Positions 14,209 to 32,485 of a DNA stretch of 64,000 nucleotides are shown here, one piece after another (positions within the stretch are counted from its first letter, which is position 1; the number at the start of each line of letters is the position of its first letter). A model generated the notes under the pieces. The model was not told the DNA's origin and did not search any database. It saw only the letters and a list, made by a program, of their open reading frames with translations. Made by a program: the position numbers and the translations under genes. The stretch is from the NCBI GenBank assembly GCA_021234155.1, contig JAJEKV010000002.1, positions 40,475,841 to 40,539,840 on the forward strand. The letters run 5' to 3'. Source of the stretch: Isoetes taiwanensis. Taxonomy: Eukaryota > Streptophyta > Lycopodiopsida > Isoetales > Isoetaceae.

Positions 14209-15885
14209 TAAAACCGCTCTGTGAATTGTGACATGGTTTGAAGGCTACTTTTGAAATCACTAGATAAAGAATGCATAACTTGCAAGATGAGTGGCAACAC
14301 TAAATGTACAAGTAGATAGCTCGTGGTAGGTGGTTAACATAAATTATATTCGTTAGTTTCTACCAAAAGAAGAAGATGGAATTTCACTTATGCACTAATG
14401 AAGGGAGAAATACCCACACACAGTTTGAAAACTATTCATGGTGCTAGTGTTGACCTTCAACCTGGCTTAAGAGTCAAACGGAAGAAGCCAACTTGAAACT
14501 ATGCTCAAGTTGGAGGTAGAATCTCTAGATCACTTAAGGTGACAAGTCTATAGAAGAAAAAACCACTGGAAAGCTCAAAAGAGCAGTTGTTCATGCCTTT
14601 CCCATTTCTGGAAAATGGTAGCAATACTCAAGTCAAAGTGCTTTGCAAAGGTTGTCAAAGTGCACAAGTGCCAATAGTTGCAAGGAGCAATGGCAACCTG
14701 TCAAAAGTGGATTTGCAATGAAGGATATTGTACTACAGAATTGTTTATAATGGCAAAATGCTAGAAATCATATCAGAGATAATTTTTTGAGACTTGATAG
14801 GCAATTTTCATTGATGTAAGGATAAGCAGGCCATAATAATACTATGTTGAGGATTATCAATACCTCATACACAACAAAGGTCATTCAAAAATTCATATAT
14901 AGTATTATAAGAACATAAGTTTCAGCCAGATTTTTGCAAATCGAATCGAGGAATGCACATGAGCTTCGAGAATTCTTTAACACATGTTCAGCGTGTATCA
15001 ATGTTGAATTTGAGCGTGTCTGGGCCTTAAAAAACTTATGTAGATATTTCCCATGTATATATTTTTCATATTGATGGTTCCAGAATATTAGATCTTAAAT
15101 TTAGGCTTGTTGGGTAGATAATGCACGGGAATCCAAGAATAGATAGGTTACATAGCTCATGGCATCAATTGCGGCATGATTCGAGCCGATATTCAGAGTT
15201 TTAGGGTCCATAGGAGTTTTTTCAAGTAGAGGCCCGAGTACTCGTATGTATTTTTCGCGTATACTCCCATCGTATATGTGTATAATTTTTTTTTTTTTCA
15301 ATGGTCATGATGGTTAATGGTTCTTAAGGGCCAAAAATAACTCCTTTAATGATTTAAACTCTCAGAGCCGATTCACGTGCACGATGGCATCCCTTACCAT
15401 CATGTAAAAAGGCAAGCCCTTTTACACGCACCATCATCTGCCATCGCCAAAAAGCACAGGGCAAAACAGGGCCCCTCTCCAGTGATAATTGCATGTCAAC
15501 CCAGCCTTAGGACTATGGTGGATATGCCCAAGACTATAATTCTTGACTAGGGCAATTTTGTGAGGCACCTTGGGACCATGGTAGAACCACTTGGGCATAT
15601 AAAATCGGGCATGAGGTAATGCAAACTTGTAATATGAAGCAATGGTCATGGGGCCTCTTCAAAGCCATAGTAATAATACAAGGGTAGTATGGTGATGGTG
15701 TAAAAATATAAACCCATATCAAGGGACAATGGTGAAAAAAAGGAACATGGGTGTTTGAGCAAAAAGCAAAAGTGTGGCACAATATGAAAAGTCATCGGGC
15801 ATGAACTTAAAATAGTTAAAAGGGACACGTAGGAAAAAATAAGCAAATGTGCAAGGTGTATCTTGAGTTGAAAAGTCATCGGGCA

Positions 15886-17569
15886 AGCATTTCCTTGATT
15901 CCTAAGGTTAAGCAGCCTTCTACCATTAATGATTGGAGGCCTATCTCCTTGTTGTCCTCTGTGTACAAGATTATTGCGAAAGCCCTGGCACCCTGGCAGA
16001 GAAGTTGAAGCCGGTGTTGACTTCTTCCATAGTAAGGTGCAGTCTGGGTTTTTGGGAGGAACATTTTGACTAATGGTGCCGCAGCTTATGAGGGCGCCAG
16101 GAGAACAGGTCAAGGCATTGCCTATTTTAAGCTTGACTTTGCCAAAGCTTACGATAGTGTCTGTTGGGAGTTCTTGTCTGCCATGATGTTAGTGTTGGGC
16201 TGTGGTCCACGCTTTCTGAGAGCGATCATGAAGTCGCATAGGTCGGCCACGGGCTACGGTGGTGCGCCAGGGTGAACCTTCCGCCTTTTTCTCCTTAGGC
16301 AGAGGGGTGCGTCAGGGGTGCCCTTTGGTGCCGTTTTTGTTTACGATTGTGGCGGAGGCACTGTCTCAGTTGTTTTTGGCTGCAGTGAAGGAGGGGGTGG
16401 TGGATGCGCTTCGGATGCAGGATGGTAGCCAGCAGATTATTAACTAGTTCGCCGATGACACTTTCCTCTTCTTGGTGGCGTAAGAGAGGAATCACTTGGA
16501 ATGTGAAGGGTTTCTTTGGATACTTTCTCCTTGGCCTCGGGCATTCTTTGAATTGGGGTAAATGCTCCGCATTATGGGCCCGGTGACTCCGCCTCCCCTT
16601 GTTTGGCTCTATTCCCTTGGAAGGTGCTTCCGGGTAATGTGTGTACTAAGTCATTTGGGTATTCCCTTTGGAGGGATGTTTCTATTGGGAGGGTGTGGGA
16701 TGAGATTTTATGGGGGTTACGTAAAACACCTCAATTGGTGGAAGGGTAGCAAGTTGTCCATGGCGGGTAGGATCACTATTGCCAAGTCAAGACTTTGTAG
16801 CACTCATGTGTATATCTGACATCTGCGATGTTAGCTCATGAGGGTAAGATCTGTGCTTTGGATAAGATTGTTGAAATTTTGTGTGGGGGGGGGGATGATG
16901 AAGGGGGTTGTTAAAGTGGCTTGGTGGAAGTGTCTCCGCCCTCGGGAGGATGGGGGCTTGGCCATTCGGATTTGGTGCTGCATAGTAAGGTGTTGGTCTC
17001 CAAGTTTGTTTGGAGCAATGCGGGGATGGAGCATCTTTCGTGATGCGGACTGTTGTTATTCTGATCTCTTCGCCATTGTGTGGCGTTTGGGAAGCCGATC
17101 GTGCATGTGGAGTTGCCCAGGCACTTTGTTGTATGGTCTCGGCCTTCCCCACATGCATCCCCTTTTCTCACGGGGGTGTTTCGGGCTTGGGATCATGTGC
17201 GTGTGCTCTTCCAGCTAGATTATGCCTCAGTTTATCACCACTCTTCTCCTTTCTTGTGGGTTCCTCTACCCCCTGCGCACTTGCCCTTGGCTGCCACTGT
17301 GCATGCTCGGATGCAGGCCTGTTGGAGGCGAGCTGCTGTGCTCACATTGGAGGATTGGTATTGGGGTGGTCAGCTAGCTTCGTGGGAGTTCTTTCGAGCT
17401 CGCTTTCGCCTGAGGGGCAGTGACCAGGCTATCTGGGAACAAGTGGCGGGGAGTATTCCACTACACATATCTATAGTCCCTCAGGATGATGTGGTGGTGC
17501 AGGCTTGGAAGGTTCATCCGGATGTTGTGTCTTCTTGTTTTGTGCGGTCTTGTTACCGGGTGCTGGTTA
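15886..17569 (+). mobile_element. LINE reverse transcriptase, best copy, 5' part of a split LINE
   Basis: This is the best preserved of the three LINE segments. It shows L-D-F-A-K-A-Y-D-S-V-C-W-E-F-L (16130-16175, RT motif A), R-G-V-R-Q-G-C-P (about 16300, motif B region), F-A-D-D-T-F-L-F-L (16448-16474, catalytic motif C) and L-N-W-W-K-G-S-K-L-S-M-A-G-R (about 16730-16775). Beyond the tandem breakpoint (17171) a 200-codon open frame (17080-17685) continues the C-terminal, tryptophan-rich part, with W-R-R-A-A-V-L-T-L-E-D-W and W-E-F-F-R-A-R-F-R-L. At 17569 it is interrupted by the 13.2-kb DNA transposon, and the LINE resumes at 30734. The 5' end (endonuclease) is missing, as in many truncated LINE insertions. 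Confidence 0.88.
17564..17569 (+). repeat. Target-site duplication, left (TGGTTA)
   Basis: TGGTTA lies directly before the left terminal inverted repeat and recurs at 30734-30739 directly after the right one. The surrounding sequence on both sides is LINE. Confidence 0.85.
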
Positions 17570-17600
17570 ACCATCATTCAATTAAATTGGGATTATGTCT
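17570..17600 (+). repeat. Left terminal inverted repeat, 31 bp
   Basis: It begins ACCATCATTCAATTAAATTG and matches the complement of 30703-30733 over 31 of 31 bases, after which the two ends diverge. The same sequence begins the copy at 62890. Confidence 0.92.
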
Positions 17601-18146
17601 TAATTTTGGGATAAATTTTATATTGCACTTTTTTAGTAACTTTGTTAAATTCACTTTTTTAGTAACTTTGTTGCCCTTAGACTAGAATAGACGTTAACAT
17701 ATAATCACACACGAGAATATAAACTCACACCTTAACTTCAAATTATAAAATCATATATCATGGAACTCAAGTAGTACACAACTTTTATTAACTGTAGAAA
17801 AGATACATAGTAATTGTTTTTCATTTTTCCACTAGCATCCCCAAGGATATGAGAACCTTATTCCTTACATCCTGAGGTATTGTAACTCTCATTTGTTTTA
17901 CTAGGAATAGTTTTGGAGTCCACGAAAGTACAATACGGTTTCAACGTCTAGCCAAAGATCGGGATCACTTGGATTTCTCCTCCACCTCTTTGTCCAACAA
18001 TCTGAATATCTTTCTTTATCGGTGACATTACTCAACTGATGTCTTTGGACACCACCATTCCACAGCAAGCACCTTATTGAAGTTAACATCACCTTCTTCT
18101 TTGCAAATATCCGAGATAGTTCATCCCAACCACTTTGGATAGGTCT
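17601..18146. other. Subterminal region of the transposon
   Basis: This AT-rich stretch lies between the left TIR and the DUF7869 stop. It holds a short local repeat of TTTAGTAACTTTG (17630-17675) and a 63-codon minus ORF (17901-18092) that would lie after the transposase stop. It recurs almost unchanged at 62921-63440. Subterminal repeats of this kind often bind transposase, but no binding site is demonstrated here. Confidence 0.45.
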
Positions 18147-20809
18147 CTAGATCTCTTTGGTTTTACTACTACAAATTGGTGGCACTCCACGTCGATTAGA
18201 AGGTTCATAATAATCCATGCCTAGATATTTTGGCCTATCCTTCTTAGGACCAACATAGTGTTTATCGATTGAGGAGGAGCATATGCCTTCACAATGCTAC
18301 TAATGGTACCATCATCTTCGTCGGCACCCACTAATGTTTTCCACTTACTTTTAGGGAACCACCCTTCTTTTCAGCTCTTCCGAGGATATGTCTACCTCAT
18401 CCAACAAGTTGATCACCTTCTTCCAATAATCTATCAATGCACGATTAGTCTCATATCGAATTAGTTTGCCAATGCTTGATGTAGTCATTGATGCCATCCT
18501 TAGTCAATCCCAATTGCTTGACTTCTTGGTTGGTTTTAGAGCTTTTGGTTGACCTGGAGGTATCATAGGCTTGCCATTTGCATCCCTCGTGCCAAATTTC
18601 TGCCCCACCTCTCCACTTCTCCCTCTCGAAGGTCTCATTTTTCCATTGCATGATTGGAATCCCTTCTCTCACCCAAAAAGTGAATTGAAGAGGTCTAGTA
18701 TGACCTTCCATGTCGAGAGCATAACCATCCACAAAACTCTTCCAATCAGGCACTTCTTCTATGATAGATCCTATAGGAGATGGATTTGTACATCCATGAA
18801 ATATTTCCAATGCTTTGGGAAAGTTGGTAAGCTGTCTGCTGTCTCAATACATGACTATATTTTCCAAACAATGCATCCACATCCTCATGAGTATGTGGGG
18901 CATTAGGAACCCCAAATTGACTCTTTCAAAAATACCCACAGCTGTTAAGTAGGATAGGAAAGAAAACATCCACCTGTTCTTATTTTGACCAGCACAATTA
19001 TCTAGTTGCAAGAGGAGCTTTCTGGGCAGATCTCGAGGTTTAGCACGAGATGTTGAAGCTCCAACATGTTCATTAGGTCCATTCCTCCTAAATCTTGCCT
19101 TGCTAAACTTTTCAATACTATTAGGGGTTCCATCCAACAATGCACTATGTAGTGCACGGCTAGTGTGTAGGATCCCTGTGAGGTTACCATTGTAACCCTT
19201 CTCATAGTTTCTTAAACACCTCATGATACTCCCAATATGAAAATCTGGACCATCACTCCACAACTCTAAACTGAAATGGCCATAATAGGTCTGAGCCTGC
19301 CCATGCAATATTGCCCCAGTCATTGAAATCTGCAAAGGATATGATCTTCCACATGACTTAGGAATGTACTTGAATTGTGGAAGACAAGTCTTCTGTTGGT
19401 CCATTTTATCATGTATAATACATAGATAGTTATTAGGTTCCATTGCAGATAAGGTCCTCCACATCCAATAAGTTGATCTACATGATAGTTGATCTGTCAT
19501 ATGGTCCTTCATATGTTCCCTTATCTTTGCCCTTAGACTTGGTTGCACAGTCTTATCTAGTGTCTCCTTCAACTTAGCACATAAATTGCACTTGGCAAAG
19601 TTGTTTGAAGTTGCTATGGTCACATGCTTGAAATGCTTATTCCATAGCCTACTAAAACTGGAAATTTTGGGATATAGAGGCCCACTTAAGTTCATGAAGC
19701 AATGCATTTATTTCCTCTAATATGCTCTTCCGGGTACAATGGGATGGCAATCTCTTTTCAACAATAACTCTACCATTTCATCCTTCTTACTCTTATGTGG
19801 CATGTTTTTACGCATTGAAATCCACATATCTTTCAAATATTTCCTTTGCAGCTATAGTTCTTGAGGTAGGCCTTACCAGGCCAGTGTTTCCATGCAATGC
19901 AATTTTACTACCATTTTCATGTCTCTTTTGCCAGTTGTGCCAAGAAGAGGTTGGAATTCCATGTATAGCCATCCATGCTTTTGAACATATCCACTTTCCA
20001 TTCAATGGGAATCTTTTCTTCTTTGATCTTTCATCCTGAATTGCATAGCCAAATATGGTTCACATGAAATTCCTCCTGCTATCACACTTATGTTCCTGAT
20101 ATGTAGCTCTTGCTCCCACCAACTCCTCTATTGTGAACATTCTAACACAAGAAAAACAACAACATTCACCTCCTCTAACCTTCATCATAGCTTCAGGAGA
20201 ACAATCATAATCTGACTTGCATCTTTTGGTGGGATAATGTTTGAAAGTTGGAAGTGGCCTCTTGCTGCTTGTGTGAACATTGTTGACAATGGTTCTACAT
20301 CTAAAGGAAACGTGTAGTTCCCCTCCGGTTGAATCGTCCCTAGGCCATGCAACAATAGTTGGAACCTCTAGTTGCTTCACACAAGCTAGGCATTCTTGTT
20401 TGCCCGAACCCTTTTCCTTCCAATTGTCATATAATTTTGAGATTGCCACACCTAACTTTGTCCTCCCTAATCTTTCATCATTCCTTTGCATTGATAGGAT
20501 CTCGCTAGAACAATAATCCCTTCTCCCTCTTTGCCTCTCATTTGCATGCATGCGGGATCTTGACCTTTTTGTTTTTCCAATCGACCCGAGTATAAAGGAC
20601 AATTTCCTTTCCTTTGCCATCATCCTTTTCATTTGAGGTCTTTTCCTTTCCTTTGCCATCATCAACATCATTCGGAGTCTTTTCCTTTCCTTTGCCATCA
20701 TCAACATCATTTGAGGTATTTTCCTTTCCTTGGACATCATGTTCATTAGTTGGGAATTTCTCCTTGCCTTGATTAGCATCATTGGGGTTTTTTTTTTAGC
20801 ATTTTGCAT
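18147..20809 (-). CDS. DUF7869 transposase-like protein
   Basis: This is the probable transposase of the 13.2-kb element, about 885 codons from the Met at 20809 to a stop at 18147. From the N-terminus it shows four basic repeats around M-M-A-K-E-R-K (20580-20760), then C-L-A-C and G-E-C-C-C-F-S-C cysteine pairs (20.1-20.4 kb). Next come an H-G-N-T-G block (about 19870), a zinc-finger-like C-N-L-C ... H-M-K-D-H (19.5-19.6 kb), an acidic site I-I-H-D-K-M-D-Q (about 19420), Q-L-D-N-C-A-G-Q-N-K-N-R (about 18990) and H-T-H-E-D-V-D-A-L-F (about 18880). The last three blocks match the order of conserved acidic motifs in DUF7869 proteins. A frame change lies just before H-T-H-E-D, and others follow between 18.45 and 18.15 kb. 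The copy at 63.6-63.8 kb reads through one of the latter, so these are either recent damage or sequencing error. DUF7869 has no proven activity that I can cite; the transposase role is inferred from its position between the TIRs. Confidence 0.75.
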
Positions 20810-20979
20810 GCCATTGACCTAGAATGCATAAGAATATATAGTAAGTTAGCATATCCAAATAACCTCTAACTAACATGTTCATAAATGAAAGCCTCATATG
20901 TTCTATTTATATAATGGGATTCCCCAAGTTATTTTCCTCAACATTATATAAAAATAAAACCCTCTACTTGTAACCTTCA

Positions 20980-21240
20980 AACTTGTATCCTATAATAACC
21001 TTAGAAACAACTTTTAAGGTTATTATAGGTTTTTGATTTTAAGGTTAAGAAGTTTATTATAGGTTAGAAAATTTAAGGTTGGAAAGTTATTGTAGGTTAA
21101 AAGTTTTAAGGTTAGAAGTCTAATTCATGAACTTTTAAACTTATAACTTAACTATTAACTTAAAACTATTTTAAAAACTTATAAGTCATAACTTTTAAAC
21201 TTAATAACCCTTAAAACAATTGTCCTTAAAACAATTAACC
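20980..21240. repeat. AAGGTTA / ACTTTTAA short-repeat tract
   Basis: This is a degenerate run of TTTTAAGGTTA-like words followed by their complement (AACTTTTAAAC), giving a loose fold-back of about 250 bp upstream of the DUF7869 gene. It would lie in that gene's 5' leader or promoter. I see no clear TATA box. Confidence 0.55.
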
Positions 21241-21339
21241 CTTGTAATAAATTTTTAGCGGAAGTTATAATGGCTGGTGATGAAAATTTAAAAAGCGGTT
21301 ATTATTTCAAGTTAGCCTTCCTTTTCAAACTTTTCTCTC

Positions 21340-21925
21340 ACACTTTCGAACATTAGCTTACGCTTCCAATTTCGGCATTCCAGGCGCTTCTGCTTCCAAT
21401 TTCGGCATTCCAGGCGCTTCTCCTTTCTCGGCTTCTATCGCTTCGGCATCATCAATCTACCTTCAATCTATCTTCTACGCTTTACGGGCATCAATCTATC
21501 GCTTGCATGACCTAAGGAATCAATCTATCCGCTTTGCATGACCTAAGGAATCGTCAATCTATCTTTCGGCTTCAATCGCTTAGAGCTTTTATCCGTTTTC
21601 TAGCTTTCGAGCTTTTATTTGTTTTATCTGTTTTCGAGCTTTTGGGTTTTCGGCTTCTATCCGCTTCTAGGCTTCTATACGCATCAATCTCGACTTCTAT
21701 CGCTTCTCGACTTCTATCCGCATCAATCTCGACTTCTATCTGCTTCTCGGCTTCTATCTGCTTTAGGGTTTTGGCTCAAAGGTTTTTTCGGCTCAAAGGT
21801 TTGTAGGCTCTATACAATGTCTCTGGTTTTTTTGGTTTTTTGGCTCTCTACAATCTCTCGACTTTGAATAACTTTGGTTTTTGTGTTAAAGCTTCTCGGC
21901 TTCTCGTTTAGAAGGCTCAATTCTC
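21340..21925 (+). repeat. CTTCTAT-CGCTTCTCGA degenerate tandem array
   Basis: This is a pyrimidine-rich array of 18-40-bp words such as CTTCTATCCGCATCAATCTC, including two near-perfect 33-bp copies at 21363-21425. ORFs across it (21534-21867) only reflect the repeat. It lies between the divergent transposase and cargo genes, so it may separate the two transcription units. Confidence 0.7.
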
Positions 21926-22084
21926 GGGTACTGAACACAAGTAGGTTAGTATTTCCTGTTATATACATAAAGTAGTTATTTTACATAAAGCAGTTCCTCA
22001 TAGGATTGGTTCTGTGATCTGGCCTATATGATCTGCTCTTATTCTATTTCAATAGGTCTTCCTCTATCTGTTCTAAGCCATGAT

Positions 22085-22275
22085 CTAAAATAATGAAGTA
22101 AATAATGATCTATGATCTATCGCTCTATGATCTTGCTCTATGATCTATGAGCTATGATCTATGATCTATACGCTCTATGATCTATACGCTCTATGATCTA
22201 TGATCTATCTGCTCTATGATCTATCTGCTCTATGATCTATGATCTATGACCTATCTATGATCTATGATCTATAAT
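22085..22275 (+). repeat. CTATGATCTATGATCT tandem array
   Basis: This array of a 7-8-bp word (CTATGAT) is interspersed with ATACGCT and ATCTGCT variants, which may be one word read differently at a CHG site. It is non-coding. Confidence 0.85.
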
Positions 22276-22323
22276 GTATTCAACGATTATGCATTCTGTT
22301 AGAATAATATGTTAGAATGGGAG

Positions 22324-23067
22324 AAATCGTGCTTGGCGCATTTCTATTTTTGGTTTCCGATTTTCCATTAGGTTAATCAAAGTCGCCCGCCGCGTTTTAG
22401 TTTCTATACAAATCGCGCCCGGTGGCGTGTAAAATAGATCCGTGAAAAAACATAGCAAAAGCGCGCTGGCGTTTTGAATTATGTATGTTGAGAATCGTTT
22501 TATGGGGAGAGTAATATATCATTTGCTAATGACTTAATTTTCTCTCGTTCTAGTGCCATGGATTTTCCTTATGCATGGACACTAGCTGATCTACGACTTT
22601 GGATGGTTCTAGTTCAAATACACTTCCACGGGCGACCATCAACTCTCGGACCCCGTACAAGATATTACTTGAGTGTGCTGTTCAAAACGTTCAAAGAGAG
22701 TTGGAGAATCCAATAGACAGTCTGTATCAGGGGCCATGGGTACACTTCCATCGCATCTATGGACATATCAGAATCCTCATGCTCTTAGTAAGGCTCATGC
22801 CAACAAATAAGTACGAGGATTTGCTTTATAGTATCAAGGATCGATACAACACTCTGGTTTGGAGACTCGACATCCGCAGGGAAGATGAGGATCCTGTCAT
22901 ATCAGGGTGGTTCAGGTGGGACTTTTTGCGGGATTGGGCCGATGAAGTGGGGCTATGTGACATATTGTAGAGATAGAAAGAATTCGCGCCTGGCGCATTT
23001 TTGCAGAAGAAGAAATGTACATACACTTTTTTGGAATATGAATACAAACTCGCGCCTGGCGCAATTT
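22324..23067. repeat. Palindrome family A, cluster of five
   Basis: Copies at about 22324-22343, 22411-22432, 22455-22475, 22981-23001 and 23047-23067 share the core CGCGCC-TGG-CGC flanked by AAAT/ATTT-like arms. They flank the small ORF at 22599-22970 on both sides. The same motif recurs at 25.9-26.3, 29.1 and 30.4 kb, and I saw it nowhere outside the transposon. Confidence 0.75.
22599..22970 (+). CDS. Unrecognised 123-residue cargo protein
   Basis: This is an uninterrupted ORF with well-mixed codons. It is bracketed by family A palindromes and ends shortly before AT-rich spacer. The product looks helical and mildly charged, with L-Y-Q-G-P-W-V-H-F-H-R-I, a hydrophobic I-L-M-L-L-V-R-L-M run, and a C-terminal R-R-E-D-E-D-P ... 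W-F-R-W-D-F-L-R-D-W. I do not recognise a family. A different start at 22559 opens another frame but soon stops, so the Met at 22599 is preferred. A short ORF at 30111-30314 has a similar R-D-L-E-D-P ending and may be a relative. It could also be an exon of a larger gene. Confidence 0.45.
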   Translation: MDGSSSNTLPRATINSRTPYKILLECAVQNVQRELENPIDSLYQGPWVHFHRIYGHIRILMLLVRLMPTNKYEDLLYSIKDRYNTLVWRLDIRREDEDPVISGWFRWDFLRDWADEVGLCDIL

Positions 23068-23308
23068 TGCACTATATTTTTATGTCATTTAGTTTATTAT
23101 GTTTTTTTATATGCAATGTCGAAAACATTGAATCCTTTGATGCCCTCCAGCCAGTATGACCAACCCCAAGAAACTACATATTTTCATTAATGTGTAGTTT
23201 CATGGGGTTGATATGACTGGCTAAAGAACATCAAAGAATCCAAAATTCACAACATCACGCAGATGTTATGATATATTCATTTTTTTTTGAATATCCAAAT
23301 ATACATAC

Positions 23309-23523
23309 CTTTTTCAGACGGTCTTTTGGCCATGCTACAAATGTGCCCACGCTTTCACCAACTGTATCGCCACCGGGATGTCTTCTTGGAAGAGCCTCAT
23401 CTTCGTAATTGCAGTTTATAATGGAAATCTTACAGAAACTGTTTCCAAGAGGAACACCATGACACATGGAACTTGGATTCAGATCTTCGATTTTACATAA
23501 GCCTACTCGGCGCTTCAAGTTTG
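23309..23523 (-). CDS. DUF8039-like exon of a minus-strand gene
   Basis: The exon is bounded by a consensus acceptor (TTTTAACAG at 23524) and donor (AAAAAG-GTATGT at 23303-23309). It encodes about 70 residues reading ... M-C-H-G-V-P-L-G-N-S-F-C-K-I-S ... T-V-G-E-S-V-G-T-F-V-A-W-P-K-D-R-L. The pattern of G-V-P-L-G, a variable stretch, then G-x-x-V-A-W-P resembles DUF8039 domains, which in plants often occur in transposon-encoded proteins. Upstream and downstream exons are not convincing. The match is from memory of the family pattern and needs a profile search. Confidence 0.45.
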
Positions 23524-24043
23524 CTGTTAAAAGATAGCATTCTTCTCAGAATAGCGATGAAGAACCAGAATGCATTGGAAAAAATAGAGGACGAAAAATA
23601 GAGAACAAGAGAATGCATTCGGAATGGAATCACACTCACCATAGCTCAGCAGACATCGAATGGGATTGAAGGCGGCTCGATCGAATAGGATTGAAGGCGT
23701 TGTAGACGGATCTTGGGGCCTCACGATAGTAGGAATGATCTTGGGCCTGAAAGTAGGAATGATCTTGGGGCCACGATAGTAGGTGGCCGATTAGGTGGTA
23801 GTAGATTGCCACATATCGTTTCTTGAAATTAATAATTAATTGTTCTTGAAATTGCACTAAAAAAAAAAAAACACAATTTAAATTTGTAAATGAGCCGGCG
23901 GACGGTTAATTAAAGGCGATATAAATTTAAAAGGGCCTTAATTTGAATTTCTGATTTTGTAAATCGGCGGCCAAGATTATGAACGCATACATATAAGTTT
24001 AAACCAAAATCCCAGTCTTATATTATCCGCGACTTGCAGTTCT

Positions 24044-24160
24044 ATGGCGTCTAGAGGATCGCCGCGTAGGCTGGTAGAGGTGGGCGACGACTCAAAGCAC
24101 AAATCCCATGCACGGAGGCTGCTGAACAAGCGAAAAGCACAAATCAACAACAAGCCTCGG
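24044..24160 (+). CDS. First exon, basic N-terminus of a plus-strand cargo gene
   Basis: An ATG at 24044 opens exactly 39 codons, reading M-A-S-R-G-S-P-R-R-L and rich in K and R, and ends at CCTCGG-GTAATT, a plausible donor in phase 0. A TATA-like CATATAAG lies about 50 bp upstream (23990). It points toward the DGQHR-like exons at 25.0-26.6 kb, but the intervening exon or exons (24.6-24.95 kb) are not clearly resolved. It may instead start a separate gene. Confidence 0.4.
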
Positions 24161-25049
24161 GTAATTGATCTGTTTTTGTTCTGAATTGATTTACGTGTCC
24201 CTTTTTTTGTTAGGTTTTAGGATGTTTTTACGTAATAATATAGTTATTATCCAATAAGAAGCATGTGTCCTCTAATGTTTGAGTTCATATGTCCAAAAAA
24301 ATGTATGGAAACAAATGCTTAATGTGTACATGTTGGTTTCTCTTTTAATCTTTGTATGTCTTTGCTTGAAGCTTGTATACTTAGCTGAACAATATTCAGT
24401 AGCTAGTTGTGTTTTTATAGTTAGTTGTGTCCCTCGATGAAGATTCAACTCTTTAAGTTGCATTTTTATAGTTAGTTGTGTCCCGAGCATTTTGATTCGG
24501 ACCAAAAACGCCCTGGCCTTGATTTAATTAGGCATTACATTAGTTTCTTTATCTTCGGGTCACTTCTAAAAGCAGCATGCCAGCGTATTTATTGCATTTT
24601 GATTTGGGAAAAACGCTTTGGCCCCTGACCCTAATAAACTAAATGAACTTGTCGTGTATTCATTTTCAAATCGCCAAGCGCAAGCGTTTTGTTGCATATG
24701 TGTCGGTAAACATTTATTTGAGCATAAAAAGATTAACCCATGTCTTTGTAATTTCACGGGGATCACAAAAGACAATCAAAAGAGGGAGGACCAAGCAAGG
24801 CGAGACCTCTGAGCCCGAGAAAAAAGCAAAGGACGAAAGAAGATGTTCTTTATTATGGACTGCGGCATGTATTGGCGTTAGAAGATACATCGGAATAATA
24901 AAGGCTCAGGTAGAACCTCCATGTCGTAAGAAGATCTTATAGAAATCGAGAATGGTATGTGGAGATATTCAAAACCGGTGGGAAGACGGACCTCATATTC
25001 ATGTCAAGGTTAAGAGAGACCGATCAAATGAAGAAGCGGGGAATTCTTA

Positions 25050-25885
25050 TTACATGTGAAGTGCGGGACGATTCTTTACATTGCATTGCTAGTTGAAGTG
25101 GGCCAAAAACATAAGAAAAGCCTAAAGAAGATCAATCGATGCGGTCGCGAAGCTCTTTAAGAAACTGCTTTAAGATCAGACGACATGGCCGATAACCTCT
25201 TCAAATTTGGCTGGACAGTTGGCGAGCCATTGACTCCTAGAAGAATATGCGAGGGGCTTACAGCTGTTCGACGAGCCATTAGCACGAGGCCCTCGGGCAG
25301 TGTCTACTTACAGGCAGTGAAGGACAAGGAAGAAGCTAGCTCTAGAAGCAGGGAAACTACAGAAGTGACAGCAGGCCTTACAAGTGACGATGACAAGGCC
25401 AGGCAGTTGGAGGCAATGAGCAAACTGAAGAAATATGCCGACAAGTATCCACTGGGCCTCAGCTTCACACATCCAGTCAACGTGGACAGGCTTTTCAGGT
25501 CCACTAAAGCTATTTATATCAGCAGAAGGTATGACAAGCAGCACTCCTTGGAGATATTAAACAGCATGATCGAAAATCCAGGGCAGGTGCCAATGCCTGC
25601 AGATGTAGTGCCTTACGATACCAGAACAAAAAAGGTAATCATCTGGAGCAAGCTGGAGGACTTCATCGAGAACCCAGACATACATTTTATGATAATAGAT
25701 GGCCAGCATTCAATAGAGGCCCAGAAGATTCTCATCAAGAAGGCACAGCATACTGGGAATCAGTTGTTCTATAAGCTGTATTCTGTCAGAAACTGCCGGT
25801 TCCTGAGCGGGTCAACAACACCTGCCGAACTAGCCGAAATAAGCGCACTCCTAAATGACATGGGAAAAACTTTCTTATACAAAAG
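25050..25885 (+). CDS. DGQHR/ParB-like protein, main exon
   Basis: The open frame 25185-25885 encodes about 233 residues, with coding similarity extending upstream to about 25050 in another frame. Near residue 175 is F-M-I-I-D-G-Q-H-S-I-E-A-Q-K-I-L, the hallmark D-G-Q-H loop of DGQHR and ParB/sulfiredoxin-fold domains, known from bacterial DndB-type proteins and ParB-like nucleases. The upstream L-S-F-T-H-P-V-N-V-D-R-L and the P-M-P-A-D-V-V-P-Y stretch fit the usual pattern of listed positions before the loop. The exon ends at AAAAG-GTAATT with two bases of a split codon. The next exon (26304) restores the frame exactly. Its biochemical role in plants is unknown to me. Confidence 0.65.
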
Positions 25886-26303
25886 GTAATTCTCTTCCCA
25901 CATTTTTATTTTTCGTATTACCAAATCGCGCCAAGCGCGATTTCATAGTAGAAGGCAATTCGCGCCAGGCGCGATTTGCCTTCTCTAAATAGCAAAGGGT
26001 TCCTGGGATGGTAGACGTTTCCCGTCAAATAAGCAAATCGCGCCTGGCGCGGTTTTATATTAGAATACAAGTTGAGCCACGCGCGATTTCCCTAGCCTGA
26101 GGAGACATGGCTGTCCTTGAAGATAGCCGTTTCTTCTCAAAGTAGGCAACGTTGCTGGGCTTAATTTGTATTCTAATATGAAATCGCCAGCGCCGATTTG
26201 CTTATAATGACTAGAACCATCTACTATTTCAAAAACCCTTTGCTATTTAGAAGGCAAAATCGGCGCTGGCGATTTCTAATATGAAATCGCTGGCGTATTA
26301 GAG
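25886..26303 (+). other. Intron containing a long fold-back with palindromes
   Basis: This 418-bp GT-AG intron is almost entirely an imperfect inverted repeat. The arm at about 25945-26070 pairs with about 26160-26275, including shared AAATAGCAAAGGGT and TAGAATACAA words, around a 90-nt loop. Family A palindromes sit at 25923, 25958, 26035, 26074, 26181, 26258 and 26284. Splicing in silico gives a matching phase: a two-base remainder plus one base makes Ser, followed by Y-Q-V-L-H-N-Q-L. Confidence 0.7.
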
Positions 26304-26610
26304 TTATCAAGTACTTCATAACCAGCTTGGTGAGGAAGATCAAATTGTATGCGAGTGGTACATGAATGGCACGTTCTCTCGGGGGCTATCTTTGTTTGGA
26401 ATGAAACCTATATCCGTGGTTGGAAATAAGGACATGGTTGAAACCATTCAGTCATACTTGGATCCGCTTCATGAGCATTTCAAGGGGAGGAAGACAAATG
26501 GAAGCGATAAAGGCGGCGAGGCGAGGGAGACAAACGGCCGACGGAGGCGAGGATGTCGAAGGATTGGACCGAATCTTGCCGAAAACATTATTGAAAGCCC
26601 CGAGATTGAG
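26304..26610 (+). CDS. DGQHR/ParB-like protein, downstream exon
   Basis: This exon continues the frame of the preceding one after one base and encodes 102 codons, including E-E-D-Q-I-V-C-E-W-Y-M-N-G-T-F and P-L-H-E-H-F-K-G, then a basic tail. It ends in ATTGAG-GTGAGT, a consensus donor, in phase 0. The next acceptor (TTCCAG at 26785) also gives an open frame of about 70 codons, R-F-R-V-T-R-R-M, to a stop near 27010. The basic tail suggests nucleic-acid binding or nuclear location; this is inference. Confidence 0.6.
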
Positions 26611-26635
26611 GTGAGTTTATTTTGCTCTAGCGGTG

Positions 26636-26712
26636 TTTCGACTTCGCGAAGTCGAGAAAACTCGTTCCTTTCAATACCTTTTCTTGTCATTCTCGACTCC
26701 GCGAGTCGAGAA
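26636..26712. repeat. Palindrome family B, two copies in an intron
   Basis: Two palindromes of the form TTTCTCGACT-(n)-AGTCGAGAAA lie at 26636-26659 and 26691-26712 within the intron 26611-26785. They are each followed by CTCGTTCCTT, so a roughly 55-bp segment is tandemly repeated. Confidence 0.8.
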
Positions 26713-26785
26713 TACTCGTTCCTTCGACGGTTGTCATCATTTTGGAATTCGAGCTCAACTCCAAATCATTGTCAATGGATTCCAG

Positions 26786-27000
26786 CGGTTCCGCGTCACG
26801 AGGAGAATGCGAATGAAAATCGAGCAAGACAACGCTCCACGGCCGAAAAAAGAACACGAAAAGTTAATGATCCCGCATTTGGATCCCGATGAACCGAAAT
26901 ATGGTGAGCCAAACTCAAGCGGGATCGGCTGGTCCCACCAAGCTTGTAATATTTGGCGTCAATGGGTATTAGGCTGCGGTATACCCGCGACAAAAGCGTC
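26786..27000 (+). CDS. Exon after the family-B intron, start of a phosphatase-like segment
   Basis: In the phase carried from the previous exon it reads R-F-R-V-T-R-R-M ... G-W-S-H-Q-A-C-N-I-W and stops just after 27000. In another frame the stretch 26930-26965 reads P-T-K-L-V-I-F-G-V-N-G, which lines up with motif I (V-F-D-L-N-G-V-L) of the phosphatase fragments at 29.2 and 54.8 kb. Either the two frames belong to one gene with a base error, or the splice site used differs. Confidence 0.4.
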
Positions 27001-27606
27001 CCGAGATTAACACCTCGCAGATCCGGTGAAAGCAGAGCATAAAATAGTGTATCCGAGGCCCGAGCTAAGGAAATTATTGAATGGTGCGCACGGGATTGAA
27101 GTGGCTATATGGTCTTGTATGGCAAAGAAAAATATTGTCAATGTTCTTGGTGTTCTCGGCATTTCAGTTTTGAAGTTCAAGTTCGTTTGGGGAAGCGAAA
27201 GGGTCGAAAGCATGTGAAGGATCTCGATCCAGCCATCACAAAAGGGAAGCCTATAATGGTGAAAAATTTGGGCGGTGTTTATGAGCAATTCGAGGGACTT
27301 TGGCAAACACAACCGCTGATCATAGGCGACTCCGCCTACAAGTGCTATCATAGCAGTAGAAAAATACAATCATTGCTAAGCCATATCGACCTGAAGAATA
27401 TGAGAGCGAGATAGGTGGTTGTCGCCGGACTCATCCGTCTTGGCGGAATCCCTCTTTGCCATTCTTGTCGCCCGATGTGCTTACGAACTATCCAGAGCCT
27501 CACGGAACCCGATCCGAGGAAAAGCAAGCCGATCATGAAAGCTATGGGCGACAAATACTTTGGTGAACAAGAAGAGTTTTTGCTTTCGGATAGTCAAATT
27601 GTGTGA
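26925..27606 (+). pseudogene. NIF/FCP1-type HAD phosphatase-like, copy 1
   Basis: Blocks in order match the NIF (CTD small phosphatase) fold of the HAD superfamily. They are motif I as K-L-V-I-F-G-V-N-G (Gly where the nucleophile Asp is expected), then Y-P-R-P-E-L-R-K-L-L-N and V-A-I-W-S-C-M-A-K-K-N-I (27.05-27.13 kb). There follow F-V-W-G-S, K-P-I-M-V-K-N-L-G-G-V-Y and P-L-I-I-G-D-S-A-Y-K-C-Y (about 27.24-27.35 kb), and a C-terminal P-Y-R-P-E-E-Y. Such enzymes dephosphorylate Ser, as in the RNA polymerase II CTD. At least two frame changes separate the blocks. Whether they are real or sequencing errors cannot be told here. Confidence 0.65.
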
Positions 27607-27678
27607 ATATTGTAATCGAACTTTAACACATGTATTGACCATTTTGTAATGAATATACTTGTATATTGAGTTTTCGAT

Positions 27679-27929
27679 GCCTTTCTCGACTCACGAGTCG
27701 AGAAAGGCATGCTTGTCGTGTTGATGATATGCTTGTACAATCTATTATGATAATGCTTGTACATTGGGTTTCTGGGACTTTCATTTCGCGAGTCGAGAAA
27801 GGCATACTAGTTGTCTCGGTGACAAAAGCATTTGTATGCTTCCGTGTGTGATTGGATGCAACCATATTCTAATGAGAATGGTTGTACTTTGACTTTTATG
27901 GGCCTTTCTCGACTCGCGAGTCGAGAAAG
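27679..27929. repeat. Palindrome family B, spaced cluster
   Basis: A near-perfect palindrome at 27679-27708 (GCCTTTCTCGACTC arms, 2-nt centre), a half copy at 27786-27803 and a perfect 26-bp palindrome at 27904-27929 (CTTTCTCGACTCG and its complement) are spaced about 107-118 bp apart. Each is surrounded by similar TTGTA...ATGCTTGTAC sequence. They lie just 3' of phosphatase copy 1, where they could form transcript hairpins. Confidence 0.82.
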
Positions 27930-28019
27930 ACACTACTTCGGACGTCATTGGATGCAGTTGTATGGAATGAATGTTCTCCGTTGTAATTTGATTTCAAGCG
28001 TTCTTTTTGACTAATGACA

Positions 28020-28500
28020 CCGTAATTGTTAATCATACTCTCCTTGCTCCGGGTGGTTCGAGGCGCAGATCCGACACCGGCCACAGTCCCTTCGGGCATC
28101 ACAGACCGCTCGCTCCGACACGGATCCGCTCAAAGGCGGAAGAAATACCGTTAAAGCACGAGATCCAGGTCACGCTACACTCTTGCCCGGCCTTTGGGAC
28201 AAAGGTTGCTCATGAGTGAGAGGTTGCTCGCTACACCACAGGAATAAAAAACGGCGAAGAACAAAGAAAGTCGGGGAAGCTCAAGGCATATTGCAAGCAT
28301 TGCATAACATCCCCGGAGGTTGGGGAAGGAGCATATTCGATGAAAGGCGGGGGGAGAGTGGAGAAGTCCGGGTGGACAGTCGGCGGTAGCTCGAGGCACC
28401 TCCCGTGAGGCATTCCACACTCTTGAGGTTGCCCCAAGGCTTCTGAGGCGGCATGAAGAAGCGCCACAAGTTAATCCCCTAAGGTGGACCACCTACCAAG
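28020..28500 (+). other. Possible coding remnant with a C-x2-C motif
   Basis: Segments read R-S-K-A-E-E-I-P-L-K-H-E-I and K-L-K-A-Y-C-K-H-C-I-T-S in neighbouring frames. The C-x2-C after a basic stretch is reminiscent of a BED-type zinc finger, but the histidine half is not seen. Frames are broken and no start is evident. It may be host or cargo gene debris. Confidence 0.25.
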
Positions 28501-28830
28501 ATGATGTTTGTAGTGACAAGAAGACCGCCATGGTCTCTGCGTCCAGATGTAAAATACATTGTATACATTCAATTTATTAATAAAAATTCTTTTTCAACTA
28601 CATCTTTGGTTTCAAACTTTAATGAATTTCCTTTGTTTTGGTTGCATTGTTTTTGTTCTCGACTTCGCGAACACGGGAAAAGCTCAGTACGGCTTCGGTT
28701 GAGTTTTATTCAAAAATTCGAATTAAGGATAGTTTTGAATTCGGGGTGCTACTTTTATGTAAATGCTTAGGGGTTCAAAAAAAAAATGGGAATGGAATGA
28801 GTCCCACTTTAATTAAATCGACTTAATATT
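28500..28830 (+). repeat. Shared 3' segment, copy 1
   Basis: This roughly 330-bp segment recurs at 50835-51128 in the 3.9-kb element. Shared words include TTTAATGAATTTCCTTTGTT, TTGTTCTCGACTTCGC and the closing TCCCACTTTAATTAAATCGA. Both copies follow a short coding tail ending ...A-x-x-M-V-S. It looks like the 3' end of a mobile unit or gene captured by both transposons. Confidence 0.65.
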
Positions 28831-29215
28831 GATGATGAAGCGGACTCCAAATCGATAACACTAGCGAGGTTAAGCGTAAAGAGTAATGAACTATCAAGCG
28901 TAGTTCACTGCTTTGTCTGAGATCTCAAGCCCGATGTGGTTGGTGCTTCTAGCGGACGAGGAGGCAAGTCGGAATAAAGATGCAAGGGATGAAAGAGAAC
29001 GGGGAATGATGAAGGCGAAAGGTATCGTGACAATATTCCTTTTTTGATATCCATGCATTTTTCAAACTAGAAGCTTATAGAAATCGGCCTGGCGATTTGG
29101 AGTTTCCTAGAGCATACTTTTGAATTATGTTGACATGCATCATTCATGAAATCGGCGCCGGGCGGCGTTTTTTTTCCATTTCTTTTTATCTCATCGTTAT
29201 TGTTCTCCCTTACGA
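28831..29215. other. Spacer with two family A palindromes
   Basis: Palindromes lie at 29081-29098 and 29148-29170 in AT-rich sequence between the shared 3' segment and phosphatase copy 2. A short reading stretch D-A-R-D-E-R-E-R-G-M-M-K near 28980 may be an exon of the following gene, but is too short to call. Confidence 0.4.
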
Positions 29216-29217
29216 AA

Positions 29218-29890
29218 TGATTTGGCTTCCCCAAAAGTCTTGGTCTTTGATTTGAATGGTGTGCTATGTAGAGCGTTACCTAAAGCAACGTTTGAAAAGT
29301 CATGGTATGCGCCAACAACCATTTGAGACATTACCAAATATGTTTTTACCGCCCTTATCGAAGGAGATGTTGGACCGGGCCTTGATCTGTTTTCGATTTG
29401 TGCAATTTGGTCATCCATGGAGCATAGAAATATACATGATGTTTTGAAAGTAGTGCCTGAGCTAAATAGAAATTGGGCGTCCATCACGGGATCAAAGCAA
29501 ATGTGCTTCATTCACAAACCCTAAAGAACCGAGCGGGTAAAAGATATTTGTGAAATGCTTGCGCAACATGATGGATGCCCTAGGTGTTGAGGATAAGGAA
29601 GGCATAATCATTGTGGATGATGGCGGCTCTAAAGTGTTGCTTCAATCAGTCCGCGGTCATTGAATCCGCCATCCTATCATCCTCAAGATTTTGACAAAGA
29701 TGACTTCTGCCCCGCTTTGTTAGTGTCTGCGAGGAAATAGCCGAGGAAAAAGCGGTCGAAGAGATACACACACTATACCCACACCTTGATGGACAGGGGA
29801 AATTGATGGGGAACTTGAGAAAATCGTCCTAGAAAGGGAACTTTTTGATATATATGTATACTGGGAAATACACTTTCCAAAAAGTTTTGA
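29218..29890 (+). pseudogene. NIF/FCP1-type HAD phosphatase-like, copy 2
   Basis: Motif I reads K-V-L-V-F-D-L-N-G-V-L-C at about 29240, followed by D-L-F-S-I-C-A-I-W-S-S-M-E-H-R-N, the counterpart of the W-T-S block of NIF phosphatases. Next come N-W-A-S-I-T-G-S-K-Q-M-C, G-I-I-I-V-D-D-G-G-S-K-V-L-L (about 29610, motif III/IV region), and a tail H-P-I-I-L-K-I ... L-Y-P-H-L-D-G-Q-G-K-L. Canonical family members have D-x-D in motif I; here it is D-x-N, so catalysis as a phosphatase is uncertain. A few stops and frame changes interrupt it. It shares block order with copy 1 but is clearly diverged, so it is not a recent tandem duplicate. Confidence 0.65.
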
Positions 29891-29899
29891 ATATGAAAT

Positions 29900-30110
29900 A
29901 TACTTTATAACGAAGGTTTTGAATATATATTGTGTTCTTTTTATCGGCATTATTGGTTACGTAATGCATTATTATTTTTTATATTATGTGTATGCGGTTT
30001 GTTATACTTGCAATAATTTGTAGGTATATCATCAATAATTTTGGTGTGTATAAATAGGTATGCATGAAATAGCCCTGAATAAACCCCGGTCTCGCCTTCT
30101 CCTTGTTATT
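29900..30110. other. AT-rich spacer
   Basis: I see no gene, only TATAT-rich sequence between phosphatase copy 2 and the small ORF at 30111. Confidence 0.4.
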
Positions 30111-30314
30111 ATGGCACATTCTATTACGCGCAAGATGAACCATGCGGACCTCTGCCGTGCGCGAAACTAGAAATAGAACTTGAGGGACTGGCTTGATGTC
30201 GTTGCTATGAATCGTCGCTTCTATCACGATCCCTTTGATGTTGTAATCCATCTTATATGGAATCGAGCATGGTTTGTTCATGATCGGCGGGATCTCGAGG
30301 ACCCGCTGCGGCGC
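30111..30314 (+). CDS. Short unrecognised ORF with H-P-F-D and R-R-D-L-E-D-P
   Basis: From an ATG-like start the frame reads A-H-S-I-T-R-K-M-N-H ... L-R-D-W-L-D-V-V-A-M-N-R-R-F-Y-H-D-P-F-D and ends W-F-V-H-D-R-R-D-L-E-D-P-L. It contains two in-frame stops near 30170. Its ending loosely resembles that of the 22599-22970 protein (R-R-E-D-E-D-P). I do not recognise a family. It may be a decayed exon. A family A palindrome follows at 30379-30399. Confidence 0.3.
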
Positions 30315-30378
30315 TGAGGACGATGAATCGATTAGTTTTGTAGTTTATGTTCTATTGTAATCGTTATTTATGCCAAAC

Positions 30379-30399
30379 AAATCGGCGCGCCAGCGATTT
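30379..30399. repeat. Palindrome family A, last copy before the right end
   Basis: AAATCGGCGCGCCAGCGATTTG lies 300 bp inside the right TIR in otherwise AT-rich subterminal DNA (30400-30702), where I see no gene. Confidence 0.7.
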
Positions 30400-30702
30400 G
30401 AACCTGAAAAAATCTCTGTTTTGTAGCAACTTGCTTGTTGTTATTTACTCGTAAAGCATTACAATTTCATTGTTTAGATTTCGTTGTCGTCCGTGAATGT
30501 GCGAATTAATAGGCAATTTCTGTTTTTTTCAGCTGCCTACATTACGTCATAATATGGGTCATTTGCATCGAATATTTGAATGCCTTTGCATTTTCACATA
30601 AAATGCATATTCCCGACCGAAAATGAACCGCGATTGCAAAAGTGTGGTTAATTCAATATAATGGTCAATAAAATGCTTATGGTAGCGATTTTGGAATAGA
30701 AT

Positions 30703-30733
30703 AGACATAATCCCAATTTAATTGAATGATGGT
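30703..30733 (-). repeat. Right terminal inverted repeat, 31 bp
   Basis: It is an exact complement of 17570-17600 and is followed at once by the TSD TGGTTA (30734-30739). Confidence 0.92.
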
Positions 30734-31321
30734 TGGTTATTCATGACACTCGCCCCTCCCGGCAAGTGGTCTGCGACTTCAGGGTTTCGATGGCATTTCG
30801 GTTTGGGCGTGGACATGTAGCTCACTTCCCCACCGAAGGTTAGGGTGCTACGTGGCGGTGGTGGTGCACCTGCCGTATCGGGGAGTGCATGCTCTTATGA
30901 GTCGGTTTAGGCGGGTGTGAGCCCTCTCGCCCTTGTTGTGGCCTTCATGGAGGCGTGGAGCATTGTGCGGTTTTATGCCCTCACTTGCGGGGCTGATTTA
31001 GGCGGCGGTTGTGGATCTTTCGGGGATTGACGACTGCTGACCTCTCGATTCCTCGACTTCGGTACAAAGCTATTTCAAAGCTTTACGGTGTTCAGGGATT
31101 AGTCGGCGGAAGTTTGCCATTTGGCGGGACTTCTTGGGTGTTGTAGATGGTGATGGTGGGTTTATGCAAGGCCGGTAGAGTTGTAGTTTTTTGTGAGTTT
31201 GTTGTGGAGTGTCGAGGTATTGTTGTCTCTTTGGGGCGGTTCTCCTTCCTCCTCACTTGCTTTGTAACATTACCATTCTTTTAATATATTGATGACATAG
31301 TTCTTCAAAAAAAAAAAAAAC
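30734..31321 (+). mobile_element. LINE 3' end, continuation of 15886-17569
   Basis: The LINE sequence resumes after the transposon. It carries the C-terminal coding tail (for example S-R-R-K-F-A-I-W-R-D-F-L-G in the related copies), a 3' stretch TTTAATATATTGATGACATAG and a poly(A) run at 31307-31320. About 145 bp in the middle, present in the next two copies, is missing here. Confidence 0.8.
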
Positions 31322-31539
31322 TTCAAAAAGGGCATATGAGGCAAAATAGGCATAATGAAAGGGCAAATAGGAAAATGGCTAGGCTAAAAAGATGCAAGGA
31401 TGGGTAAGTGGCAAAATGAGCATAGTGGAATAAAACTAAGGCCAAGAACCATATAGCATGGGATCTTCAAACTCTAACTTCAAACTTCAAATGAGTGTCT
31501 TCCAATCTTCTTAGCAGAAACTTCTAGAACATGCCTTTG
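31322..31539. other. LINE 3' flank, later duplicated
   Basis: This AT-rich flank contains GGCATATGAGGCAAAATAGG and similar words. It is part of the repeated segment that recurs after each poly(A) run. Confidence 0.6.
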
Positions 31540-32234
31540 CCTCATGACACTCGCCCCTTTCGGCAAGTGGTCTCTGCTGACTTCGGGTTCTCGATGGCGC
31601 TCGGTTTGGGCGTGGACATGTAGCTCACTTCCCCCAAGAAGGTTAGGGTGCTACGTGGCGGTGGTGCCATTTGTATCGGGAGTGCATGCTCTTATGAGTC
31701 GTTTAGGCGGGTGTGAGCCCTCTACGCCCTTGTTGTGGCCTTCATCGTGAGGCTGTGGAGCATTATGCGGTTTTATGCCCTCACTTGCGGTTTTGGGATT
31801 GGGTCGGGGCTACGTTTGGTGAGATTGACTAGCCCGGCCGATTCTTCGCTTCATGTGTATCGGTGATTGGCGCTCTTGCGGCGACAAAGCCTACATCGTG
31901 TGTGGCTTGGTTGGTGTGGCTGATTTGGAAGCGGCGGTTGTGGATCTTCGGGGGATTCAGCGACTGCGGCCTCTCTCGATTCCTCGACTTCGGTACAAGC
32001 TATTTCAAAGCTTTCGGTGTTCCCGGGATTAGTCGGCGGAAGTTTGCCATTTGGCGGGACTTCTTGGGTGTTGTAGATGGTGATGGTCGGTTTGTATGCA
32101 GTGATAGAGTTGTAGTTTTTGTGAGTTTGTTGTGGAGTGTCGAGGGTATCGTTGTCTCTTTGGGGCGGTTCTCCTTCCTCCTCACTTGCTTTGTAACATT
32201 ACCATTATTTTAATATATTGATGACATAGTTCTT

Positions 32235-32268
<34 letters not shown>

Positions 32269-32485
32269 AAAAAAAGGGCATATGAGGCAAAATAGGCATA
32301 ATGAAAGGGCAAATAGGAAAATGGCTAGGCTAAAAAGATGCAAGGATGGGTAAGTGGCAAAAATGAGCATAGTGGAATAAAACTAAGGCCAAGAACCATA
32401 TAGCATGGGATCTTCAAACTCTAACTTCAAACTTCAAATGAGTGTCTTCAATCTTCTTAAGCAGAAACTTCTAGAACATGCCTTT
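31540..32485 (+). repeat. Tandem LINE-3'-end repeat, copy 2
   Basis: The unit starts CATGACACTCGCCCC and runs through the LINE C-terminal tail, poly(A) (about 29 A at 32237-32265) and the same AT-rich flank, ending TAGAACATGCC. The readable tail includes L-V-W-L-I-W-K-R-R-L-W-I and F-A-I-W-R-D-F-L-G-V-V-D-G-D. As the non-LINE flank is repeated too, this is segmental duplication, not a new insertion. Confidence 0.88.

Follow-up and report, generated by a model that had tools for sequence, protein, structure and literature searches.

A probable high-copy, multi-gene DNA transposon built on a DUF7869 gene in Isoetes taiwanensis

Most plant DNA transposons consist of a transposase gene between two ends, and short deleted copies are in the majority. 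CACTA/EnSpm elements are large plant transposons with terminal inverted repeats (TIRs) that encode a second protein, carry CACTA at their ends, and generate a 3-bp target-site duplication (TSD). Here, we describe an element of 13,166 bp, termed family 1, in a 64,000-nucleotide stretch of the genome of the seed-free vascular plant Isoetes taiwanensis (GenBank assembly GCA_021234155.1, contig JAJEKV010000002.1, positions 40,475,841 to 40,539,840; hereafter, the window). It very probably belongs to a multi-gene TIR DNA transposon that is present in high copy number and has conserved accessory genes: its exact ends occur more than 1,000 times in the genome, the complete pairs sampled mostly span 12 to 14 kb, and it carries accessory genes, one of them with signs of selection, in addition to a gene of the Pfam family DUF7869. 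One family-1 open reading frame (ORF), at 23255-23545 on the minus strand, weakly resembles TNP1 of the EN/SPM elements (Transposase_23, E = 0.016, below cut-off), and its DNA is conserved in other copies; however, family 1 has neither CACTA ends nor a 3-bp TSD, and its transposase gene is DUF7869. A DUF8039-like ORF named in a preliminary description of the window went unconfirmed, the match of this minus-strand ORF being to Transposase_23, below cut-off.

IS3EU of rust fungi resembles family 1 in being a TIR DNA transposon with TIRs longer than 30 bp and with genes other than the transposase (PMC12730594); its accessory genes include TET/JBP and alpha-kinase genes, and TET/JBP is common to several transposon lineages (PMC12730594). 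However, IS3EU has 6-bp TSDs and TAYGG..CCRTA ends (PMC12730594), whereas family 1 has 4-bp TSDs, AACC...GGTT ends, DUF7869, and other accessory genes; because of its TSDs and ends, it was not assigned to IS3EU. Dada elements, which are mostly intron-bearing DDE transposons, are likewise long (4.7 to 11 kb), but they have 6- to 7-bp TSDs in small-RNA genes and lack TIRs in the U6 and U1 families (PMC3706591), whereas family 1 has 32-bp TIRs and 4-bp TSDs. Assignment to Dada was rejected on the TSD length and because no Rfam family (at gathering score) was found in the window, the one insertion site scanned for RNA genes; the window has no tRNA either. The 4- to 5-bp TSD of Ginger1/Ginger2 (PMC10045372) is compatible in length with that of family 1, and no match to a retroviral-type integrase domain, as in Ginger, was obtained in the frames scanned, which are broken. 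Conserved accessory genes such as TET/JBP have been described in DNA transposons of fungi (PMC12730594), and the combination of this transposase, TSD, and gene set appears to be new. Nothing alike appeared among the papers listed in literature searches for plant transposons that are giant or multi-gene, for gene capture, and for transposon-borne NIF, and no paper naming DUF7869 was found; most subscription journals lay outside the scope of these searches. The Pfam entry PF25273 (DUF7869) has no function assigned; family 1 now links it to an element with defined ends and TSD length.

Ends, target-site duplications, and copies

The element was delimited at 17569-30734 by an inverted-repeat search of the window and by comparison with other copies. 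Its two arms, at 17569-17600 on the plus strand (beginning AACCATCATT) and at 30703-30734 on the minus strand, are 32 nt long and 100% complementary. The window has three occurrences of the terminal 30-mer; with up to 3 mismatches allowed, 100 shuffles gave an expectation of 0.00. The preliminary description had already recognized the perfect inverted termini, which lie 13.1 kb apart, but had measured them as 31 bp; when the boundary was shifted outward by one base on each side, perfect 4-bp TSDs emerged in all six complete copies (GGTT, CTTT, TATT, ATTT, GCTT, and TGTA), the window copy included, where GGTT occupies 17565-17568 and 30735-30738. Seven further two-ended copies include five with perfect 4-bp TSDs (AATT, TATT, TATT, CATT, and ATTT), one with three of four bases matching (GATT/GATA), and one with mismatched flanks (ACCA/GGTT, the second copy in the window); perfect TSDs thus flank 11 of 13 two-ended copies. 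The matching 6-bp duplication first proposed, which was expected to recur across copies, was rejected, since a full 6-bp flank match was seen in 0/5 other complete copies; the apparent 6-bp repeat in the window arises from the 4-bp TSD plus two chance matches. With inverted termini and a short target duplication that recur at other sites, family 1 is a TIR DNA transposon (class II).

For I. taiwanensis, an assembly of 1658.30 Mb in 204 scaffolds and 909 contigs was reported, obtained by combining Nanopore R9.4.1 with Illumina reads and optical mapping (PMC8566536); 1,658,258,908 bases in 1,110 contigs were searched here, and an open rbcL-type frame among them looks lycophyte-like. Following a suggestion in the preliminary description, we looked in the assembly for the 31-bp terminus in inverted pairs; 1,378 exact occurrences (688 + 690, mutated ends not being counted) were obtained, and none with the reversed control. 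The first 100 of the 1,378, for which positions were listed, contain 25 adjacent inverted pairs, 17 of them 12 to 14 kb apart, 6 at 14 to 30 kb (likely interrupted copies), and 2 longer, with no pair at 5 kb or less. Provided that the listed termini are representative, the number of copies with both exact ends 12 to 14 kb apart would be a few hundred. A 141-bp left end was also used as a query, for which the best 40 of 1,229 candidate matches were scored, all at least 97% identical. Ten of these were taken as 20-kb stretches in a first batch, and both ends lie inside the stretch in five (12,410, 12,134, 12,115, 12,053, and 12,196 bp). For a second batch of 10 copies, the right-end stretch and a short left stretch were fetched (the left stretch excepted for the second window copy), and the right end was present in seven. 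There are thus 13 two-ended copies with lengths of 12.0 to 13.2 kb, and no right end was found in the DNA fetched for 8 of the 21 copies examined. The six complete copies form two subfamilies, A (window and c1071a) and B (c1071b, c1066, c1052, and c1043).

These copies bear on the suspicion that the two TIRs belong to separate short elements, or that nested insertions at one place happened to create the 13-kb unit. Nesting does occur in family 1, with one piece inside the window copy and three inserts splitting copy c1034; however, 13 two-ended copies fall within 12.0 to 13.2 kb and 11 of them carry perfect TSDs. Given the matching lengths and TSDs, separate short elements were rejected, and an origin of the unit along either of these lines is extremely improbable.

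The DUF7869 gene and the accessory genes

From the left, family 1 holds the DUF7869 gene (minus strand), ORF B (plus), the TNP1-like minus-strand ORF, gene C (plus), and the phosphatase gene F (plus), which bears out the proposal of a large, multi-gene TIR element based on DUF7869. As proposed, the left 3.2 kb contains the DUF7869 gene, at 17901-20818 on the minus strand, in pieces with broken frames (20818-20060, 20059-19808, 19707-18844, 18843-18451, and 18146-17901). The profile match (E = 2.8e-19, 69.9 bits versus a cut-off of 26) places it in PF25273. The relative P0003 (JGI, 459 aa) is 79% identical over 38% of a 287-aa query, and tblastn of P0003 covers 19224-17839 of the window. Relatives of the DUF7869 core keep the acidic motifs IIHDKMDQ, LQLDNCAG, and GHTHEDID, and the predicted strand/helix order of relative P0001 resembles RNase H, the model being weak; a PDB sequence search with P0001 gave no match. 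DUF7869 may be a DDE/D-type transposase (D...D...E/D, with RNase H-like strand/helix order) that would cut and paste the element at its AACC...GGTT ends with a 4-bp stagger, mostly into NNTT targets.

The broken frames have to be read together with the quality of the assembly. None of the 64 trinucleotides is as depleted in the window as CTG and CAG (0.52 and 0.56 of expectation), which are unconserved in 32.5% of cases across nine window repeat pairs, compared with 5 to 16% for most classes; CpG-containing triplets are also poorly kept between window repeats (25 to 39% unconserved). CGG, CCG, and C-G, which are not deamination products, are among the commonest replacements listed for CAG/CTG. 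Base-calling errors at methylated CHG sites would produce such instability, and many of the frameshifts look like errors of this kind; frameshifts in the element should therefore not be read as mutations, and transposon genes of this assembly may look dead partly through such errors.

Gene F (29225-29829, plus strand) is native to the element and has broken frames in the window copy, where the composite match to NIF is below cut-off (E = 0.0027; 17.8 bits versus 21.8 when joined over frameshifts). F of c1066, with stops masked, also scores 17.5 bits against the same cut-off, whereas the clean frames of c1084 and c1078 reach 39.4 and 37.5 bits (E = 6.3e-10 and 2.5e-9), and by these two profile matches F is assigned to the NIF/FCP1-type phosphatases. 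FCP1-like phosphatases are ordinary eukaryotic genes, and enzymes of the FCP1/SCP type target the tail of RNA polymerase II. ORF B (22558-22970, plus strand) encodes about 137 aa over one frame change, is uninterrupted in c1071a, and has no Pfam match.

Gene C includes a DGQHR-like exon at 25161-25886 on the plus strand, a 242-aa frame, and its acidic tail lies at 28825-28890 (plus strand), where native sequence resumes. The name comes solely from the motif FMIIDGQHSIEAQ; gene C matches no Pfam or NCBIfam profile, DGQHR and ParB-like domains included, and the exon has no homologue in a set of 5.8 billion proteins. Searched by sequence against the PDB, the DGQHR ORF gave one chance-level match (E = 0.76), and its structure prediction was unusable (predicted local distance difference test [pLDDT] score of 37). 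The C-terminal half of gene C, absent from the window copy, was read in c1071a (element positions 8700-10576, L015/L016), where a stretch resembling methyltransferase motif I was seen by eye; with no Pfam match, methyltransferase identity was not adopted. A candidate second exon at 26302-26490 was discarded as sequence of another element, family 2.

Gene C evolves as if under purifying selection between the subfamilies, judging by codon positions. Between the window and 4/4 subfamily-B copies, substitutions in the DGQHR exon amount to 15 to 19, 10 to 15, and 41 to 46% at the first, second, and third positions; the bias has the same direction in c1068 (5, 6, and 15%) and c1078 (10, 9, and 20%) with the window as the reference. 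The C-terminal part shows 13 to 23, 14 to 20, and 36 to 40% against subfamily B. Taken in 150-base segments, the lowest p is 1.6e-6 for the DGQHR exon, with the window copy as the reference, and 8.8e-9 for the C-terminal part when c1071a serves as the reference. The putative intron lacks this bias in all four copies aligning to it; no B copy aligns there, so it is not a same-pair control. The transposase half of the element differs by only about 1 to 8% at any codon position between copies, far below gene C; the two halves therefore seem to differ in history, which suggests module exchange between the subfamilies.

Both the DGQHR-like exon and F were found by tblastn in 8/10 other fetched copies, c1034 and c1100 being the other two (a match to F in c1034 was left out of the count because it belongs to a nested element). 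The preliminary description had regarded the remaining ~10 kb as cargo and expected doubt if other copies lacked it, which is not the case in these eight; DGQHR-like and phosphatase-like genes are indeed present, but the region is largely common to the copies and includes a 2.5-kb nested foreign piece. This distribution argues against gene capture of the Pack-TYPE kind, in which a short DUF7869 transposon would have taken up local host fragments as passenger DNA. Capture could draw on the ordinary eukaryotic nature of FCP1-like phosphatases, on the foreign segment at 26300-28824, which is matched by none of the 10 other family-1 stretches fetched, and on copy c1100, whose alignment is confined to 17570-21017 and whose 20 kb reveal no cargo, making it an interrupted, truncated, or cargo-free copy. 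However, the foreign segment is itself a piece of a transposon, gene C has a purifying-type codon bias, and 0/25 listed end pairs lie within 5 kb. Assignment to Pack-TYPE was rejected on the shared cargo and the codon bias, parent host genes not having been searched for, and local capture was rejected for all cargo except 26300-28824; as an account of family 1, capture is improbable.

A different kind of multi-gene element, virus-like or self-synthesizing (Polinton-like or other) with DUF7869 as its integrase, would also suit the gene content, the narrow lengths, the absence of short pairs among the listed termini, and a conserved accessory gene. However, a six-frame, stop-masked Pfam scan of 20700-30733 (minus frames 2 and 3 of 27000-30733 not scanned in pieces) revealed no polymerase, capsid, packaging ATPase, or protease domain, which is weak evidence because the frames are broken. 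The TSD is 4 bp long, compared with 6 bp in Polintons (PMC10045372), and two scans for viral contigs gave no match. Polinton/Maverick membership was rejected on the TSD and on the lack of polymerase and capsid domains in the frames scanned, and a virus-like origin in general is quite improbable.

A second DUF7869 family and a third element type

According to genome matches, the foreign segment at 26300-28824 (plus strand) comes from a nested family-2 element, of which it represents the right-hand 2.5 kb, with the right terminus at 28801-28824. Two family-2 elements, C26 and C211, are 10,989 and 12,108 bp long, end in AAGTC...GACTT, and have perfect 4-bp TSDs (ATAT and ATGG, respectively). Each has a minus-strand DUF7869 relative at its left (46% to P0001) and stretch D, a phosphatase-like stretch that lies at ~26919-27450 (plus strand) inside the foreign segment; an IDGQ motif was seen by eye in both. 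HAD-like motifs in D were recognized by eye, and its relation to F comes from tblastn to F of c1084 (E = 3.6e-8); D has no Pfam match, and protein searches with gene C and D found no homologue. D occurs at at least 39 other genome places (40 scored of 1,059). Exact family-2 right ends number 16 + 10 in the genome (the C26 variant not being counted), two of them inside the window, the second at 51104-51127 with ~230 bp of family-2 sequence upstream.

The insertion site lies in the acidic tail of gene C. All four family-1 copies compared are uninterrupted there, reading ...GATAATAAC directly followed by AATA..., with the junction ...AATAAC/AATA.... From the sequence of the two junctions, a family-2 element appears to have inserted in gene C of the window copy, and its left part, together with part of gene C, would later have been lost; the window copy would therefore be unable to make intact gene C.

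Copy c1034 holds a nested element of a third type, I3 (7.4 kb, L028:940-8360), with 13-bp ends GGGTGTAAATTCT and the 4-bp TSD TCTT. It contains a transposase-like gene, in which the motifs WSDGCSSQFKS and SHGKGEHDGQGA were seen by eye and which matches no Pfam family, a RING-like frame (motif by eye), and a NIF phosphatase (53.2 bits, 3.6e-14), which lies in a 394-aa frame free of interruptions and has no PDB match by sequence at 0.001. Homology between the DUF7869 transposase and the I3 transposase-like gene was not adopted, the hhalign comparison being nonsignificant (E = 0.19, probability 0.3%).

A decayed I3 relative lies in the window at 52-62 kb (52.8-60.4 kb), with tblastn identities of 37% for the phosphatase and 34% for the transposase-like gene. 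It comprises a RING-like stretch at ~53.8 kb, a NIF phosphatase at 54843-55300 (composite E = 0.003, below cut-off), and the transposase-like gene on the minus strand at 60.4-57.6 kb.

NIF-type phosphatases thus occur here in transposons of at least two transposase types, on the evidence of one I3 copy and one decayed relative.

Possible roles and neighbouring features

Several observations weigh against family 1 as a multi-gene transposon with conserved accessory genes, c1100 among them. No transposition has been observed, and the transposase gene is broken in all six complete copies whose frames were listed. The P0001 model has a pLDDT of 42, and its PDB fold search gave no match below E = 0.51. 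The other 50 of the first 100 listed termini have no exact partner adjoining, the positions covering only 100 of 1,378, and in the second batch the right end was sought only 11.95 to 13.3 kb from the left end. The DGQHR exon shows no codon bias in c1084 (7, 8, and 7%) and c1071a (9, 7, and 4%), and its 150-base segments are nonsignificant with c1071a as the reference (p = 0.04 to 0.73); frames are broken in the exon of both copies, with few differences left beyond likely sequencing error. F and ORF B lack codon-position bias between subfamilies. Gene C is weak in family 2, where one of the two copies gives a match of 31% over 49 aa (E = 0.001) that is lost with a longer stretch.

If family 1 is nevertheless a transposon of this kind, its accessory genes probably serve the element and are not captured passengers. 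Guessing from its family name, phosphatase F would perhaps act on transcription, and gene C, going by its motif, may act on element DNA or chromatin. It is conceivable, although we regard it as doubtful, that family 1 represents a new lineage of giant plant DNA transposons at the superfamily level, characterized by DUF7869 and a 4-bp TSD. Such elements would depend for their spread on an accessory set made up of a DGQHR-like protein, whose C terminus may be methyltransferase-like, and an FCP1-type phosphatase, which might, for instance, counter silencing or drive transcription. Internally deleted copies would then fail, and the phosphatase would be common to the DUF7869 lineage and a second transposase lineage, like TET/JBP in fungi. 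The element opens a test of whether a transposon-borne phosphatase or DGQHR-like protein aids escape from host silencing.

The third identical terminus in the window, at 62889/62890, is the left end of a second family-1 copy in direct orientation (62889-64000, plus strand), which runs off the window and is 93% identical to the first over the 1.1 kb inside it. Its right end, 13,165 bp farther along, is beyond the window, its flanks are unequal (ACCA/GGTT), and the DNA after it is collinear with 30735-33816. The second copy looks like a tandem segmental duplication or a recombinant with a breakpoint at the element's left end. For the C1018 pair, the third element that a model of simple unequal crossing-over calls for is absent from the expected place.

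The preliminary description had seen a clean long interspersed nuclear element (LINE) as the host on both sides, which was only partly borne out. The left flank contains reverse transcriptase-like motifs, its ORF at 17065-17685 has no Pfam match, and no uninterrupted target site of the element was found within the window. The right flank is the first of three tandem units of 0.8 to 0.95 kb of an A-tailed, LINE-like tail (30741-33425); the common part of the unit begins 1 to 2 bp past the TSD as first drawn and within a few bases of the element's TSD. To the left, a tandem array of ~6-kb units that are 94 to 96% identical extends over 1-17171 and ends inside the LINE-like left flank.

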